Assembly (NCBI GenBank): GCA_016234115.1
Contig: JACRHD010000030.1
Coordinates: 1 to 42,673, forward strand
Direction: 5' to 3'
Length of the DNA stretch: 42,673 bases
Source: Nitrospirota bacterium
GTDB taxonomy: Bacteria > Nitrospirota > Thermodesulfovibrionia > UBA6902
Part shown: positions 16,360 through 37,131 of the stretch, one piece after another
Numbering within the stretch: position 1 is the stretch's first letter
Layout: the number at the start of each line of letters is the position of its first letter
Translations under genes and position numbers: made by a program
Notes under the pieces: model-generated
What the model saw: the letters and a program-made list of their open reading frames with translations, nothing else
What the model was told of the DNA's origin: nothing
Database searches by the model: none

Positions 16360-16433
16360 CGTCATGCCCGCAGTCATTAAGCGGGCATCCAGTGCCTTTC
16401 TGGATTCCCGCTCAACAGACTGCGGGAATGACG
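16360..16433. repeat. CGTCATnCCCG dispersed palindrome, copy 1
   Basis: CGTCATGCCCGCAG... opens and ...CTGCGGGAATGACG closes, with an internal GCGGGCATCCAG and TGGATTCCCGC forming a second arm pair. Similar copies are at 21757-21837, 22986-23103, 25164-25239 and, shorter, 6001-6045. All are intergenic and have the size and form of REP/BIME elements. Confidence 0.8.
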
Positions 16434-16466
16434 CCTAGTATTCTTACTTATGTGCACCTTTATATT

Positions 16467-17837
16467 ATGGAAACCATCCTCATCGTAGAAGACAAAGAAT
16501 CCATGGCCCAGATGCTGAAGGAGACCCTTGAGCTGGATGGATATGAAGTCGTCATTGCGCACGATGGCGCGGAGGGGACAAGGATTATCAGGGAGAACAA
16601 GGCCGCTCTTGTTCTTACCGACCTGAAACTGCCGAAGAAAGACGGGCTTGAGGTCCTGAGGGCGTCGAAAGAGGAGAACCCTCTCGTCCCTGTAATTGTC
16701 ATGACCGCATTCGGCTCAGTTGAGACCGCGGTCAATGCCATGAAGCTCGGGGCTTACGATTTCATCACAAAACCCCTTGATACGGATTACCTTCGATTGC
16801 TGATTGAGAGGGCCCTGAAAAACCGGAGGCTCGTCACCGAAAACCTCCTGTTGAAGGACGCCCTGTCTCAACACGTCGGCATGTCTGATATTGTCGGCAA
16901 GAGCCCTGCAATGGTGAAGGTCGCCGAGCATATTCAGAAGGTGTCGCAGGCAAAGACGACCGTTCTTCTCCTTGGTGAATCGGGCACGGGAAAAGAGCTT
17001 TTTGCGCGGGCGATCCATGATCTGAGTCCGAGAAAAGAGTTGCCGTTTGTCGCCATAAACTGCGCCGCTATACCGGAGGAGCTCCTTGAATCAGAATTTT
17101 TCGGTTATGAAAAGGGCGCGTTTACCGGCGCAGCGGAAAAGAAAATAGGCAAGTTCGAGCTCGCGGACAAAGGAACAGTGTTCCTTGACGAGATCGGCGA
17201 AATGGACCTGTCTTTGCAGTCCAAGGTGTTGAGGGCCCTTCAGGAAGGTGAAATAGACAGGGTAGGGGGGGCTAATCCGGTGAAGGTCGATATCAGGATC
17301 ATAGCCGCGAGCAACAAAGACCTTGAAGCCGCTGTAGAGAAGAATAAATTCCGGCAGGACCTCTTTTATCGCCTGAGCGTTTTCCCCGTCATCATCCCTC
17401 CGCTGAGAGAACGACGTGAAGATATACCGCTGCTGGCCGGCCATTTCCTGTCGAAGCTTTCGGCTGAAATGAATGTCCCGCGCAAAAATATAAGCCCGGA
17501 AGCAATAGAGGTCCTTAAGGGTTATTCATGGAAAGGCAACGTCAGGGAGCTTGAAAATGTGATAGAGAGGGCGATGATCCTCTGTGAGGGCGATGTCGTC
17601 ACACCGGAACATCTGAGATTGAGTCCGCCTGTCTCCGCTGAGTCGATGCTTATGAATATCCCTTTGGACGGGACTCTTGAGGAAGCCGCAAGCGCCGCCC
17701 TGAGGACCGCGGAATCCATGAGGATCAAAAAGGCGCTCGACGCCGTGCACTGGAACAGGAGCAGGGCAGCGGAGATACTCAAGGTCAGCTATAAGACATT
17801 GTTGACGAAGATCAAGGAATACCGTTTAGAACGTTAG
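16467..17837 (+). CDS. NtrC-family sigma-54 response regulator (orphan)
   Basis: A 456-aa three-domain regulator. The receiver domain has phospho-acceptor D52 ([12 protein letters not shown]) and K100 (FITKPLD). The AAA+ domain has Walker A GESGTGKE at 168-175, the sigma-54 contact loop GAFTGA at 215-220 and Walker [13 protein letters not shown] Fis-type helix-turn-helix forms the C-terminus ([20 protein letters not shown]). It would activate sigma-54 promoters when phosphorylated. The start at 16467 ([11 protein letters not shown]) is preferred; the frame is open to 16392 only because the dispersed repeat reads through. No histidine kinase is adjacent and its targets are unknown. Confidence 0.93.
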
Positions 17838-32911: not shown

Positions 32912-32930
32912 TTTGGGTTTTTGGTTCCCC

Positions 32931-33014
32931 TCTTTGGTAAAGAGGGGTTAGGGGAGATTTTTTGAATAATTAATTTTCAAAATCCCCCTTCATCCCCCTT
33001 TTACAAAGGGGGAG
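32931..33014. repeat. CCCCCTT / AGGGGG dispersed element, copy B3
   Basis: CCCCTCTTT-GGTA-AAGAGGGG and TTAGGGGAGATTTT come first, then AAAATCCCCCTTCATCCCCCTTTTACAAAGGGGGA. The halves are swapped relative to 17843-17921 and separated by a 25-nt AT-rich spacer. It lies in the 478-bp gap upstream of cobA-hemD and the PEP-CTERM gene. Confidence 0.7.
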
Positions 33015-33106
33015 TAATGTATTCATGCTCAATGAAGCGCATGGATAATATTCCTTAGCTATTCATGATAACATAATCGCCGTACGTTCGGCTCTAACTC
33101 CTTCTC

Positions 33107-33389
33107 CACTGTGACACGGCACAATTCTGTTACATCGAAATATGTGACAGGCACACATCAAAGCTCATTAATCCCGCCCCCTGACTTAAGCCCGCAGCCT
33201 TGTAACCACCTGATTTTCAAAAAAAAAAAAAAAAATGAAAAAGGCTCTTTAATGGTAAGAATGTTTCCTTTGGGGCTTATCATAAAGGGCGCTTAGTTAT
33301 TATCCATTGAGTAAAGTTGGATTGGATTAAATTCAAAGCCGCTTTGCGGTGATATTTTAAATTTTTATTCAGGAAGGAGATGAAGAATA
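33107..33389 (+). promoter_or_regulatory. Duplicated leader of PEP-CTERM gene 1 (copy A)
   Basis: It contains GTGACACGGCAC, the inverted repeat CTGTTACAT-CGAAAT-ATGTGACAG (33127-33150), a variable spacer, TAACCACCTGATTTTC, an A17 tract (33219-33235), ATGAAAAAGGCTCTTTA, and about 110 nt from ATGGTAAGAATG to GCGGTGATAT that are almost identical to 34870-34972. The hairpin CCGC-TTT-GCGG lies near 33339-33349. A TTGAGT and TAAATT pair with a 15-nt spacer (33308-33334) could be a promoter. GGAAGGAG precedes the ATG at 33390. Compared with copy B, 17 nt are missing after CTCTTTA. Confidence 0.65.
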
Positions 33390-33938
33390 ATGAAGAGATT
33401 AGTTATGTTTCTATTTATAACAGTAATGGTTCTGGGAGTCTCAATGGGAGGGTTTCCCTCGTCAGCTTCCGCTCAAATTACGTGGTCTAACGAGACTTAT
33501 ACGGCGCTGGCCGGAGCATCCAAAAGCTACCCGTATTATCAAAGCAATCAAACGACGTACGCTTATTCTGTATCAGAACTACCTATATCAGCACATAAGT
33601 CAGTGCCTCGAGATGGTACGGGTATATGCGCAAAAGGAATGAGCGAAATAACGTCTTCGACGATGTACGTTTGGGGCTATGCATGCGTTCCAAATGACTA
33701 TGATGGTGAATATGCTGGAGGAGGCGGGATGGCCTCATTCTCAGGAGATTATAGTGCATCCTTGCCGATGTTTCAGTTTACGTATTCATTTTTGAATAAT
33801 TATGGTGAAACCAACTTGTCTATTACGGATCTGATAAGTGGAAAAATCAACAATATACTTCTGTCAGGCAACGGGATTTCGTATATTCCAACTACTATCG
33901 GGCACGACGTAAGAGTGGAATTTAGTAATATTTGCTGA
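33390..33938 (+). CDS. Exported PEP-CTERM-type protein, frameshifted
   Basis: A 182-aa product with a signal peptide ([20 protein letters not shown], likely cut after ASA at about residue 28) and a Ser/Tyr/Gly-rich, beta-type exported domain. The frame stops at 33938, but the next frame continues without a stop to 34122 and encodes a PEP-CTERM sorting tail. One surplus base (or a 2-base loss) near AATATTTGC separates the two. As written, the protein would be exported but not sorted by an exosortase. The signal peptide region is similar to that of the gene at 35004, so the two genes share an ancestor or a duplicated 5' part. Confidence 0.7.
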
Positions 33939-34122
33939 TGCTTGGGATAATACTGCAGATGACATACCTATGTCCGATGATAAAACCCTAACCTACAGTA
34001 TGACTGCTGTAGCTCCCGAACCCATAAGCTACATCCTTTTTGTCACCGGCGGGACGCTGTTAGCGGGGAGAAGATTTCTGAAATGCGCAAAAGAGCGGAA
34101 GCGCAGCAGAGCAGAAGTATAA
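33931..34122 (+). pseudogene. Out-of-frame PEP-CTERM tail of gene 1
   Basis: Read one base out of the upstream frame, this gives [16 protein letters not shown], then [20 protein letters not shown] and RRFLK. That is a full PEP-CTERM signal: a PEP motif, a hydrophobic helix and an Arg-rich end. The stop is at 34120-34122. The extra C-terminal residues ([10 protein letters not shown]) come from a GAGCGGAAGCGCAGC repeat. Confidence 0.8.
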
Positions 34123-34131
34123 AATGAAGAG

Positions 34132-34177
34132 GGGCACGTTCTTAATCTCCAGCATAAGGGAGATTAAGTGCGTGCCC
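34132..34177. terminator. Bidirectional terminator-like hairpin
   Basis: GGGCACG-TT-CTTAATCTCC and GGAGATTAAG-TG-CGTGCCC form a long stem with a 7-9 nt loop, between the end of PEP-CTERM gene 1 (plus) and the DUF2442 gene (minus). T-rich sequence (TATTAGTTTATTT) follows on the plus side. It would stop transcripts from both directions. Confidence 0.7.
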
Positions 34178-34184
34178 TATTAGT

Positions 34185-34445
34185 TTATTTCATCTTCAAC
34201 GGGAACCTCTCAGGATGTTCTATTATCTCAACGGTCAGGTCTATGTCTAAATCTGGCCAGTAAAAGTGGCCGGGATGAGGCTCCTCAACATTTAGAATCT
34301 TTCCGACCGGAACATCTTTGAACCACGGAAAATCTTCATAGGACATAAACAACTCTTTATCCCCGGCCAAAAGCCACACCCCGTTGCTGGAAATATGAGT
34401 TATCTCAACCGTTGCGATGTTTTTTCCAGGCGTTTTTGAACTCAT
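34185..34445 (-). CDS. DUF2442-family protein
   Basis: An 86-aa protein with the DUF2442 pattern: WLLAGDKELFMSYEDFPWFK, then VEEPHPGHFYWPDLDIDLTVE. The family is small, DNA-binding in character, and very often paired with DUF4160 proteins, as here; such pairs are suspected toxin-antitoxin-like modules, but function is not shown. It overlaps the upstream DUF4160 gene by 41 bp, using the first ATG in frame. The pair lies opposite in direction to, and between, the two PEP-CTERM genes. Confidence 0.75.
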   Translation of the reverse strand: MSSKTPGKNIATVEITHISSNGVWLLAGDKELFMSYEDFPWFKDVPVGKILNVEEPHPGHFYWPDLDIDLTVEIIEHPERFPLKMK

Positions 34446-34644
34446 TAAAATGCTCCTCTATGATATTTTCGATTTCCTTCAAATGAACTCTGGACAGGTT
34501 ATGGTTTTTTGCCAGTTCGATTTCCGGATCAAGCCAGAACTTTGCTTCGCCGTCAGAACATACAACGTGAACATGTATCCGTGCTTCTTCACGTGAAAAG
34601 AAAAAGAAGCGATAGCCTTTTTCTCTTAAGATTGTTGGGCTCAT
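34405..34644 (-). CDS. DUF4160-family protein
   Basis: A 79-aa protein of the DUF4160 family: MSPTILREKGYRFFFFSREE, then RIHVHVVCSDGEAKFWLDP and a C-terminal helix with the EHFNEFKNAW pattern. The HVHV and FWLDP motifs are typical. Partnered with DUF2442 at 34185. The start at 34644 has no strong ribosome binding site. Not a known enzyme; the stable pairing suggests a two-component small module. Confidence 0.8.
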   Translation of the reverse strand: MSPTILREKGYRFFFFSREEARIHVHVVCSDGEAKFWLDPEIELAKNHNLSRVHLKEIENIIEEHFNEFKNAWKKHRNG

Positions 34645-34702
34645 CTGTTATTTAAATCTTAACATATGAGAAATCCCTTGCACAAAAAAATACTTTTTCT
34701 AT

Positions 34703-35003
34703 GTGCCACGGCACAAGTCTGTTACATCAAAACATGTGACAGACACACCTTGCAGATACATAAGCGCATCCCCTCATCCGATACTGCAGTTCTATAACCA
34801 CCTGATTTTCAAAAAAATAAAAAAAAAAAAAAAAATGAAAAAGGCTCTTTACTGGTACTGATATTGCGATGGTAAGAATGTTTCCTTTGGGGCTTATCAT
34901 AAAGGGCGCTTAGTTATTATCCATTGAGTAAAGTTGGATTGGATTAAATTCAAAACCGCTTTGCGGTGATATCTTAAAATATTATTCGAGAAGGAGAAGA
35001 ATT
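34703..35003 (+). promoter_or_regulatory. Duplicated leader of PEP-CTERM gene 2 (copy B)
   Basis: The same elements as copy A: GTGCCACGGCAC, CTGTTACAT-CAAAAC-ATGTGACAG, TAACCACCTGATTTTC, A7-T-A17 (A17 at 34819-34835), ATGAAAAAGGCTCTTTAC, and the near-identical block ending GCGGTGATAT, then GAGAAGGAG and the ATG at 35004. The central spacer (about 34748-34793) differs from copy A, so selection or recent duplication has kept the flanks. The insert absent from A encodes part of a short ORF (34835-34861). Confidence 0.65.
34835..34861 (+). CDS. Possible leader peptide MKKALYWY
   Basis: ATG directly after the A17 tract, 8 codons ending Tyr-Trp-Tyr, then TGA. Reading past the TGA gives a further open stretch (YCDGKNVSFGAYHKGRLVII, then His) to 34927. 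In copy A a 17-nt deletion reduces it to MKKAL and stop. It may be an attenuator-type leader peptide or the relic of a small gene. There is no separate ribosome binding site other than A-rich sequence. Confidence 0.25.
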   Translation: MKKALYWY

Positions 35004-35693
35004 ATGAAGAGGGTATTTACGTTTCTATTCGTCTTGGCAATGGTTTTGGGATTTTCCATACAGGCTCATGCTGATACCCCTGTAACTTTTACGTTTGAAA
35101 CTGCCGGTACAGGTCCAGACCTTATTTGGGGTTCACAGGAAACGGAGCCACTAAAACAAAATGGTTTTATAATTGACGTTATAGACTCGGATGATGATGA
35201 CCATTATGGTGCTCATTTCCACGAGACTAATAGTATTAGCAATCCGAAAGTCCCTGATCGCCCGTCTGAGCAGAGAGGTGTTCTTTGGCATGACGCACCC
35301 ACTCAAAATAACCCGCTTTTTTTCATTCCAGAAGACCAGGATACCATATTCTCGCTGCAAAGTCTTGTCGTAGGAGCATCGACTGCTGATGGTTCGCAAA
35401 CTACAGGTGTTCAGTTTACAGCATTTCGTGACGGGAATCTTCTCGCGACCTCGATTTTACCTACCGTGACTAACGGATATATTAGTTATTCAGGGAGTAC
35501 TCTCGGTTTACTTGATGGTTTATATATGGATAGACTTGAGGTTATCGGGCTTAGTAATAGCTCAGTATCATACTATATGTTGGATGATGTTGCCATTAAT
35601 ACCGCTGTCGCCCCGGAACCTGTATCGATGGTGTTGTTCGGAGTCGGCGGGGTGGTACTGGCGGCCCGCAGGATGGTATCCAAAAGGCGATAG
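35004..35693 (+). CDS. PEP-CTERM sorting domain protein
   Basis: A 229-aa exported protein. The signal peptide MKRVFTFLFVLAMVLGFSIQ ends at AHA (about residue 23). The body is beta-rich, acidic and Asp/Ser-rich, with HYGAHFHETNS near residue 70. The C-terminus is a full PEP-CTERM tail: VAPEPVSMVLFGVGGVVLAA and RRMVSKRR (about 202-229), which an exosortase (EpsH type) would cut. No exosortase or polysaccharide genes are in the window, so its sorting machinery lies elsewhere. The start ATG at 35004 follows GAGAAGGAG. Confidence 0.88.
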   Translation: MKRVFTFLFVLAMVLGFSIQAHADTPVTFTFETAGTGPDLIWGSQETEPLKQNGFIIDVIDSDDDDHYGAHFHETNSISNPKVPDRPSEQRGVLWHDAPTQNNPLFFIPEDQDTIFSLQSLVVGASTADGSQTTGVQFTAFRDGNLLATSILPTVTNGYISYSGSTLGLLDGLYMDRLEVIGLSNSSVSYYMLDDVAINTAVAPEPVSMVLFGVGGVVLAARRMVSKRR

Positions 35694-35734
35694 GTATAAT
35701 TAACGATCAAGGAATAGTAAATTGTCGATGAAGA

Positions 35735-35766
35735 CGCTCACCGGTCGAAAGCCGGTGAGCGTTTTG
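35735..35766 (+). terminator. Intrinsic terminator after PEP-CTERM gene 2
   Basis: CGCTCACCGG-TCGAAAG-CCGGTGAGCG, a perfect 10-bp stem followed by TTTT. It lies 42 bp after the stop codon. Confidence 0.8.
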
Positions 35767-35876
35767 CATTAAATTTCGATTATAATTACGTCCAGCCGAT
35801 TTTTTCTCTTTATATCCATCCCGTACATTGTCTATAATTAAAACTGTAAATTCAGCATTAAAAGGAGGTTGGAGAA

Positions 35877-36146
35877 ATGATAGCTGAAAAGGACAAGAAT
35901 ATAATTTTGCAATTTGCTGAAAAGTACAATGTCGCCGCTGTTTTCCTTTTTGGCTCTTCGCTTGAAAAGGACAGGGAGTCAAACGATATAGATATCGCCG
36001 TAAAAGGGATTGAGCCTCGCTTATTTTTTAAATTCTACGCGGAGTTATTTAAACATTTGTCAAAGCCAGTTGATCTGATAGACCTTTCCAAAAAGACTTT
36101 GTTCAACAGCCTTGTGGAAGAGACCGGGGAAAAGATCTATGGATAA
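35877..36146 (+). CDS. mntA: MNT-type nucleotidyltransferase antitoxin
   Basis: An 89-aa minimal nucleotidyltransferase. The signature is GSS at 26-28 and DID at 37-39 (GS-x9-D-x-D), the metal and NTP site of the MNT fold. MNT proteins pair with HEPN RNases; in studied HepT/MntA pairs the MntA AMPylates a Tyr near the HEPN active site and inactivates the toxin. It starts at ATG 35877 with AAGGAGG upstream. Its stop overlaps the start of the HEPN gene by 8 bp, so the two are coupled. Confidence 0.88.
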   Translation: MIAEKDKNIILQFAEKYNVAAVFLFGSSLEKDRESNDIDIAVKGIEPRLFFKFYAELFKHLSKPVDLIDLSKKTLFNSLVEETGEKIYG

Positions 36147-36591
36147 TTTATCGAGACAGCTTATTGCAGAAAAAGAAAATGTGGAAAAGGCAATAAGTAA
36201 TCTTGAAACTGCGTTGTCCAGAGATGAGAAAACCGTTATCGAATTGGCGGCTACAGGCACATTTCTGCACAATATTTACAGCGGGATAGAGAATATCCTG
36301 AAACAAATTCTGAAGTATAAAGGCGTCACTGTCCCGAAATCCGATACGTGGCACAAAGAGTTGTTGAATTTTTCGGTTTCTCAGGGAATATTATCTGAGC
36401 CGCTCGCCGATTCTCTTTACGAATATTTGACGTTCAGACATTTCTTCGTTCATGCATATGGGTTCATGCTTGAAGAAGACCAATTAAAGGATCTGGCAAA
36501 TAATATTTCAGACATTTGGTCCCGGTTTTTGACTGAAACAGAAAGTTTTTTTAACCGCATGAGCCGCAATCCTGAAGACCCGCTACCATAA
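36139..36591 (+). CDS. hepT: HEPN-domain RNase toxin (HepT-like)
   Basis: A 150-aa all-helical HEPN protein. The active-site motif R-x4-H-x-Y is R100-H105-Y107 (RHFFVHAY); the Tyr is the AMPylation target in known HepT/MntA systems. The start was set at the ATG at 36139 (MDNLSRQLIAEKE), which overlaps the MNT stop as ATGGATAA; the frame is open to 36112 inside the MNT gene. It probably cleaves RNA, with tRNA as the target in studied systems. The pair is inserted between PEP-CTERM gene 2 and a decayed third PEP-CTERM tail. Confidence 0.85.
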   Translation: MDNLSRQLIAEKENVEKAISNLETALSRDEKTVIELAATGTFLHNIYSGIENILKQILKYKGVTVPKSDTWHKELLNFSVSQGILSEPLADSLYEYLTFRHFFVHAYGFMLEEDQLKDLANNISDIWSRFLTETESFFNRMSRNPEDPLP

Positions 36592-36605
36592 AACATTTAA
36601 GAATC

Positions 36606-36691
36606 GCGCCTGAATATGTCAGCTCCATCCTCTTTGTAACCGGCGGGCGCTGCTGGCGGGGAGAAGGTTTTTGAGAAAGAAGAGAGCATAA
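36606..36691 (+). pseudogene. Decayed tail of a third PEP-CTERM gene
   Basis: APEYVSSILFVTGG in one frame and [14 protein letters not shown] followed by a stop in another together give a PEP-CTERM end, broken by a small deletion near GGCGGGCGCTG. The sequence is close to the tail of gene 1 ([12 protein letters not shown]...LLAGRRFLK). The 5' part of this gene is gone; the HEPN/MNT pair lies where it would have been. Confidence 0.75.
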
Positions 36692-36716
36692 CATCCGCCT
36701 CAACAAATTAACGTAA

Positions 36717-36745
36717 AAAGGGCTGGTCATCCAGCCCTTTGTTAG
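36717..36745 (+). terminator. Intrinsic terminator after PEP-CTERM remnant
   Basis: AAAGGGCTGG-TCAT-CCAGCCCTTT, a perfect 10-bp stem, followed by GTTAG. The A/T ends of the stem make it active in both directions in principle. It would end the HEPN/MNT transcript. Confidence 0.7.
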
Positions 36746-36848
36746 CGCTGTGGCTGCTCTATGGTGATTTAGCCCAGGAAACAATCCCGTTTATGATAAA
36801 ATAGCTTATAAAATTTCGGGAGGGCATTTTGCAGCGGCAAAAGACATA

Positions 36849-37013
36849 ATGATCAAAGTCATTCAGGAACAGCCTGATGACAGCAGCTTCGATGAAATCC
36901 TGAGAGAGCTTGCTTTTCTGAAGATGATCGACAGAGGGTTGTCAGACTCGGATAGAGGGAACGTTGTTTCTCATGAAGAAATGGGGAAGCGTATTGCCTC
37001 GTGGCAAAAATAA
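36849..37013 (+). CDS. Small antitoxin of a ParE-type module
   Basis: A 54-aa acidic protein beginning MIKVIQEQPDDSSFDEILRE and with a C-terminal GNVVSHEEMGKRIASWQK, the end typical of antitoxins paired with RelE/ParE toxins. The start ATG at 36849 has no close ribosome binding site. The following toxin frame begins with GTG at 37001 inside its last codons. The toxin is truncated, so this antitoxin is probably a survivor without its partner. Confidence 0.7.
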   Translation: MIKVIQEQPDDSSFDEILRELAFLKMIDRGLSDSDRGNVVSHEEMGKRIASWQK

Positions 37014-37111
37014 ACTGGACGAAAGAAGCTGAAGACCGGCTAAAGATAGTTTTCGATTATATTGCTGAAGATAATAAAGATGCTGCAATAAGACTTGTCG
37101 ACGCAATATAA
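37001..37111 (+). pseudogene. Truncated ParE-type toxin
   Basis: A GTG start gives AKINWTKEAEDRLKIVFDYI and AEDNKDAAIRLVDAI, the first two helices of a ParE/RelE toxin, then a stop after 36 codons. A full ParE has about 95 residues. The remaining strands with the toxin active face are absent before the HU-type gene end at 37132. It is very probably inactive. Confidence 0.8.
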
Positions 37112-37131
37112 AGGATAGAAAGCAGACGCGC

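Follow-up and report, generated by a model that had tools for sequence, protein, structure and literature searches.

Here, we describe two related stretches of DNA that precede PEP-CTERM genes in a Nitrospirota bacterium (lineage Thermodesulfovibrionia; assembly GCA_016234115.1, contig JACRHD010000030.1, positions 1 to 42,673, hereafter the window), and read them, with a probability of roughly 0.8, as a sigma-54 enhancer-promoter region that serves genes for exported PEP-CTERM proteins and has been duplicated, with copy 1 in decay. By alignment, positions 33110-33389 and 34702-35003 share the same elements in the same order, a match that is far beyond chance. The features of both copies and of the genes behind them, all on the forward strand, are as follows.

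33110-33123 (+): copy 1, main activator box (putative), TGTGACACGGCACA, an exact match to TGTGNCRYGNCACA
33127-33150 (+): copy 1, inverted repeat CTGTTACAT-CGAAAT-ATGTGACAG
33143-33155 (+): copy 1, degenerate second box, TGTGACAGGCACA, at a distance of 33 nt from the main box; shares bases with the repeat's right arm
33219-33235 (+): copy 1, A17 tract
33251/33252 (+): copy 1, junction at which the 17-nt sigma-54 promoter core is absent, placed by alignment (best sigma-54 score 3.6 bits)
33390-34119 (+): gene 1, a broken PEP-CTERM gene (frame A 33390-33938, frame B 33913-34119)
34702-34715 (+): copy 2, main activator box (putative), TGTGCCACGGCACA
34719-34742 (+): copy 2, inverted repeat CTGTTACAT-CAAAAC-ATGTGACAG
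34735-34747 (+): copy 2, degenerate second box, TGTGACAGACACA, at a distance of 33 nt from the main box
34811-34835 (+): copy 2, A-tract of the form A7-T-A17 (A17 part 34819-34835)
34852-34868 (+): copy 2, predicted sigma-54 -24/-12 promoter core, CTGGTACTGATATTGCG (11.2 bits; predicted start near 34879)
34869-35003 (+): copy 2, shared post-promoter block, mostly 5' UTR, its last 58 nt also present in the related genome G009
34955-34967 (+): mini-hairpin CCGCTTTGCGG within that block
34990-34996 (+): Shine-Dalgarno sequence within that block
35004-35693 (+): gene 2, an intact gene for an exported PEP-CTERM protein of 229 aa with the signal VAPEPVSMVLFGVGG

Identity between the copies is patchy, at 44/53 bases in the segment with the box and inverted repeat, 19/38 in the spacer, 26/27 at the start of the A-tract, 24/24 across its end and ATGAAAAAGGCTCTTTA, and 86/86 in the block directly after; it then falls to 43/50 over the hairpin, ribosome-binding site and ATG and to 39/54 over the signal-peptide codons, beyond which there is no convincing similarity. 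The earlier note had described two stretches with a shared order of elements, a differing middle spacer and a likeness that continues into the signal peptide, and all of this is borne out. Such uneven identity is not what one uniform duplication would leave, so gene conversion of the middle block after the duplication is likely. The search of the whole genome and of relatives that the note had proposed found only two full copies in the organism's own genome (G000; 3.5 Mb, 69 contigs; E = 1e-166 and 1e-79, next match 0.04), and a partial repeat that was convincing in only one of 60 relatives, G009, where the last 58 nt and the signal-peptide codons stand before a PEP-CTERM gene whose middle differs. 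Gene 2 and this G009 gene (L041 811-1500) share the leader end and have signal peptides 83% and sorting signals 75% identical around middles that are unrelated, a pattern resembling a swap of cassettes between constant ends.

Copy 1 lacks 17 nt that are present in copy 2, and these 17 nt, CTGGTACTGATATTGCG, form a near-consensus -24/-12 element (GG and GC with a 10-nt gap), agreeing with the sigma-54 promoter consensus YTGGCACGRNNNTTGCW at 11 of 14 specified positions and deviating at three. Scored with a matrix approximated from that consensus, the core of copy 2 is equalled or exceeded at 4 of 85,316 window positions on either strand, and no -24/-12 element was found in copy 1. Upstream of start codons picked by a heuristic, 33 of 42 PEP-CTERM genes of the genus have a site that scores 9 bits or more (antisense, reversed and complemented controls: 2, 2 and 1), most of them with a stronger promoter than copy 2, and the genome encodes RpoN (G000:C21:80680-82083; 439.9 bits, cut-off 277.35). 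Together these sites and RpoN point to PEP-CTERM genes of the lineage lying generally behind predicted sigma-54 promoters. The genes were divided by sorting signal into class 1, with the usual PEP[G/S]T..LLL..G signal (comparison set, n=26), and class 2, with PEP[V/I]S..LF..GG, which includes the duplicated pair and of which about 90 genes were collected from the family. A sigma-54 site precedes 46/90 class-2 genes (controls 5, 1 and 1), and about half are without a recognizable one. A sigma-70 promoter was also considered and set aside: a scan of the region gave 15 sites against 7.5 in shuffled sequence, none of them on the forward strand within the shared leader.

Both stretches lead into a PEP-CTERM gene, as the earlier note had it, and only gene 2 is intact. 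It has a signal peptide, a C-terminal PEP motif, a membrane segment and a basic tail; it exceeds the Pfam cut-off in the genome search together with its in-frame neighbors (20.9 bits), and alone it scores 14.9 bits (hmmscan), 13.5 with NCBIfam (cut-off 16) and E = 5e-17 with a subclass model. Gene 1 carries a frameshift between about 33921 and 33938 that puts its PEP-CTERM signal (34012-34074) out of frame with its signal peptide, and a homologue in G030 and a paralogue on G000:C50 run through the same point in a single frame. The frameshift could be an assembly error, as MAG assemblies can be wrong. Loss of the promoter core and the frameshift are two independent lesions, which argues that copy 1 is a decaying duplicate, probably silent. 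That copy 1 lost the 17 nt, rather than copy 2 gaining them, is suggested by their being one whole functional element; copy 1 set beside copy 2 would then be a natural promoter deletion.

An unguided motif search upstream of class-2 sigma-54 sites returned the palindrome TGTG.CATG.CACA, of which the full form is TGTGnC(A/G)(C/T)GnCACA and of which GTGnCACGGCAC, singled out in the earlier note, is the core. At 14 bits or more the palindrome is found in 18/45 class-2 regions, against 0.05 in dinucleotide shuffles, and in 0/26 class-1 regions. Exact matches to TGTGNCRYGNCACA number six in the organism's own genome (reversed control 0), at copy 1, copy 2, C5:71106, C42:17388, C60:8080 and C68:169705, and all six lie upstream of class-2 genes, a tally that is not independent, several of the sites having helped to suggest the pattern; the other genomes are independent. 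Across 37 genomes of the family, this one included, there are 60 box sites against 14 in the control, and across 24 genomes outside the family 4 against 7. Among 30 box sites that were fetched, 14 have a class-2 PEP-CTERM gene within 560 nt downstream, and about six more precede a signal-peptide gene with its end cut, masked or unmatched. Most class-2 genes are without a strong box in the region read. In both copies the second, weaker box, TGTGACAGrCACA, overlaps the inverted repeat at its right arm, and such second boxes are enriched at 31-35 nt from the first (11/245 vs 24/2555, p = 1e-4; 26 class-2 regions, copy 1 removed). The tandem boxes are most likely helically phased candidate activator sites, statistically tied to this gene class. 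The full inverted repeat was rejected as a regulon motif: most genomes have scattered matches at up to two mismatches (6 in the organism's own genome, 2 in the control), and among the matches listed it is exact in the two known copies only.

A second motif, TGTCGGaAta.tTTACA, was found upstream of sigma-54 promoters of the genus, mostly 50-180 nt from the -24 element, and belongs to class-1 genes (TGTCGG..TTAC precedes 15/26 class-1 vs 1/90 class-2 genes). It agrees with motif 1 of the PEP-CTERM cis-regulatory site, a PrsR box with a sigma-54 promoter, which is 17 nt long, ends in TTTACA and was seen in Proteobacteria only (Haft et al., 2006; PMC1569441). Copy 2 has no such PrsR box, its best score being -4.4 bits where typical class-1 genes reach 17-25. 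A true PrsR (TIGR02915) is encoded in the organism's own genome (640 bits, cut-off 502.6). PrsR is nonetheless unlikely to be the reader of the palindrome box, since genomes G001 and G008 carry both the box and class-2 genes with no PrsR above the cut-off. A sigma-54 activator gene within the window (16392-17837, AtoC/NtrC-like) was considered as well; it scores below every curated cut-off shown, and no evidence links it to the box.

Tandem NtrC-type enhancer sites, as at glnA, are palindromes about 32-33 bp apart, usually spaced by three helical turns, upstream of a -24/-12 promoter. The class-2 boxes have the same paired spacing and promoter type; the palindrome sequence and the regulated genes differ. 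On this model, we infer that a putative dimeric activator of the NtrC type (a sigma-54 enhancer-binding protein) would bind the tandem TGTGnC(A/G)(C/T)GnCACA boxes, whose separation of 33 nt would place its dimers on the same helix face. The bound activator would loop over the intervening DNA, including the A-tract, which may help to bend it, and would switch on sigma-54 RNA polymerase at CTGGTACTGATATTGCG of copy 2, giving a transcript with a 5' UTR of ~125 nt ahead of the exported PEP[V/I]S..LF..GG protein. Copy 2 would be the complete version, with copy 1 keeping the boxes without exactly the 17-nt promoter core.

The palindrome could instead be the site of a repressor or one-component regulator (e.g. 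CRP/FNR-like or TetR-like), as TGTG-N6-CACA resembles generic dimeric HTH sites; we consider this unlikely, because an enhancer fits both the helical phasing of the tandem boxes and the distance of 70-180 nt by which the palindrome precedes -24/-12 promoters, and sigma-54 promoters require an activator in any case. It is improbable, too, that the shared elements are functionless and alike by ancestry alone, a gene start having recently undergone tandem duplication or gene conversion. Recent copying would fit the 86/86 block, the partial match in G009, the restriction of full copies to two and the position of the pair within a lineage-specific insertion, but in many genomes unrelated class-2 genes are preceded by the boxes and the -24/-12 site with no other part of the leader, and the box surroundings are better kept than the adjoining spacer (44/53 vs 19/38).

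The earlier note had proposed a conserved regulatory leader of surface-protein genes acting as a structured 5' region or as a slippage-prone A17 switch, and what stands of this is a duplicated regulatory region of PEP-CTERM genes. Phase variation through an A17 tract upstream of the promoter is very improbable: the tract stands 17 nt ahead of the predicted core of the promoter, a position in which its length could alter spacing or bending, and that length differs between the copies, but copy 1 has no recognizable promoter beside its A17, and runs of A9 or longer occur in only 1/90 class-2 upstream regions (that of the duplicated pair) and 0/26 class-1 regions, so that the A-tract is local to the pair and no switch common to such genes. 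A structured RNA leader (riboswitch-like or a thermosensor) controlling PEP-CTERM genes is scarcely credible. Both copies and G009 do have a small hairpin, CCGC-TTT-GCGG, immediately before the ribosome site, but the 211-nt leader folds no better than shuffled sequence (z = 0.00; 96/200 shuffles fold as well), has no Rfam match and did not turn up in front of other genes in the class. The inverted repeat has the changed loop that the note described, and its arms pair at 8/9 positions as DNA; they are identical in both copies, leaving no compensatory changes, and the repeat, being upstream of the predicted start, would fall outside the transcript. As a family leader element the hairpin CCGCTTTGCGG was rejected, its only exact occurrence besides the pair being in G009, and a likeness of the TAACCACCTGATTTTC block to upstream regions in G003 and G006, A-rich and on the strand opposite to the gene, was treated as chance.

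The S1 protein encoded next door is 80-86% identical to those of Nitrospiraceae/Thermodesulfovibrionia MAGs, and the gene order rpsA-sppA-HU-cobA/hemD-rnr is conserved. The distance from HU to cobA-hemD is about 0.1-0.6 kb in four relatives (L159, L160, L162, L167) and about 4.2 kb here (32912-37131). Judged by this gene order, the 4.2-kb stretch is a lineage-specific insertion; it holds the two PEP-CTERM genes, DUF2442/DUF4160 genes and a nucleotidyltransferase/HepT pair. Directly following the HepT gene, positions 36610-36690 encode a remnant of a PEP-CTERM C-terminus (like PEYVSSILFVTGG, then frame-broken) with no gene body, which the C-terminus of gene 1 matches by tblastn (L030 2494-2562) and which is possibly a third, decayed PEP-CTERM gene. 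The genome has two exosortases, at G000:C53:47286-48035 and G000:C66:28689-29456; one passes the XrtA cut-off, and the other is closest to XrtB/XrtV but falls short of their cut-offs. Genomes G001, G007, G008 (99% complete) and G016 encode 7-15 class-2 proteins each and gave no match to exosortase PF09721 at E <= 1e-5, so that either their exosortase is very divergent or class-2 proteins are processed otherwise.

Sigma-54 control of PEP-CTERM genes is known from the work of Haft et al. (2006), whose survey recorded a single activator box, and the DVUA0057 regulon of Desulfovibrio vulgaris is a related system (PMC3333781; PMC4641369). As in both, a long intergenic region before single PEP-CTERM genes here holds a putative activator motif followed by a 17-nt -24/-12 motif, and as in the system of Haft et al. 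the genome encodes a true PrsR and its class-1 genes carry a motif-1-like box. Unlike in that system, the box TGTGnC(A/G)(C/T)GnCACA is often tandem at 32-34 nt, marks a subclass without the PrsR box and also occurs in genomes without a PrsR over the cut-off, and the host belongs to the Nitrospirota. In Aquincola tertiaricarbonis, pepA likewise lies behind a -24/-12 promoter, RpoN-dependent and mapped experimentally (TGGCAC, CTGCTT) (PMC9850573); the protein and the phylum are others, and the start site here is predicted from sequence. Among the open-licence papers searched, none was found to describe the palindrome box, or to place PEP-CTERM genes of Nitrospirota under sigma-54 control. What is new is a second box, in Nitrospirota, that appears to be independent of PrsR.

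The PEP-CTERM proteins form a large class of exported proteins that is linked to biofilms and flocs and is still poorly understood. The sigma-54/PEP-CTERM arrangement appears to reach into the Nitrospirota, where one subclass carries the classic box and the other a distinct palindrome. On balance we favor the view that one family of Thermodesulfovibrionia runs a second, PrsR-independent sigma-54 regulon for class-2 genes, with a putative activator acting on TGTGnCAYGnCACA boxes in tandem; the subclass of sorting signal would then be coupled to the regulatory code. Such a code, linking the type of sorting signal to a regulator, would be testable, and the six genes behind an exact box in the organism's own genome provide a candidate list.
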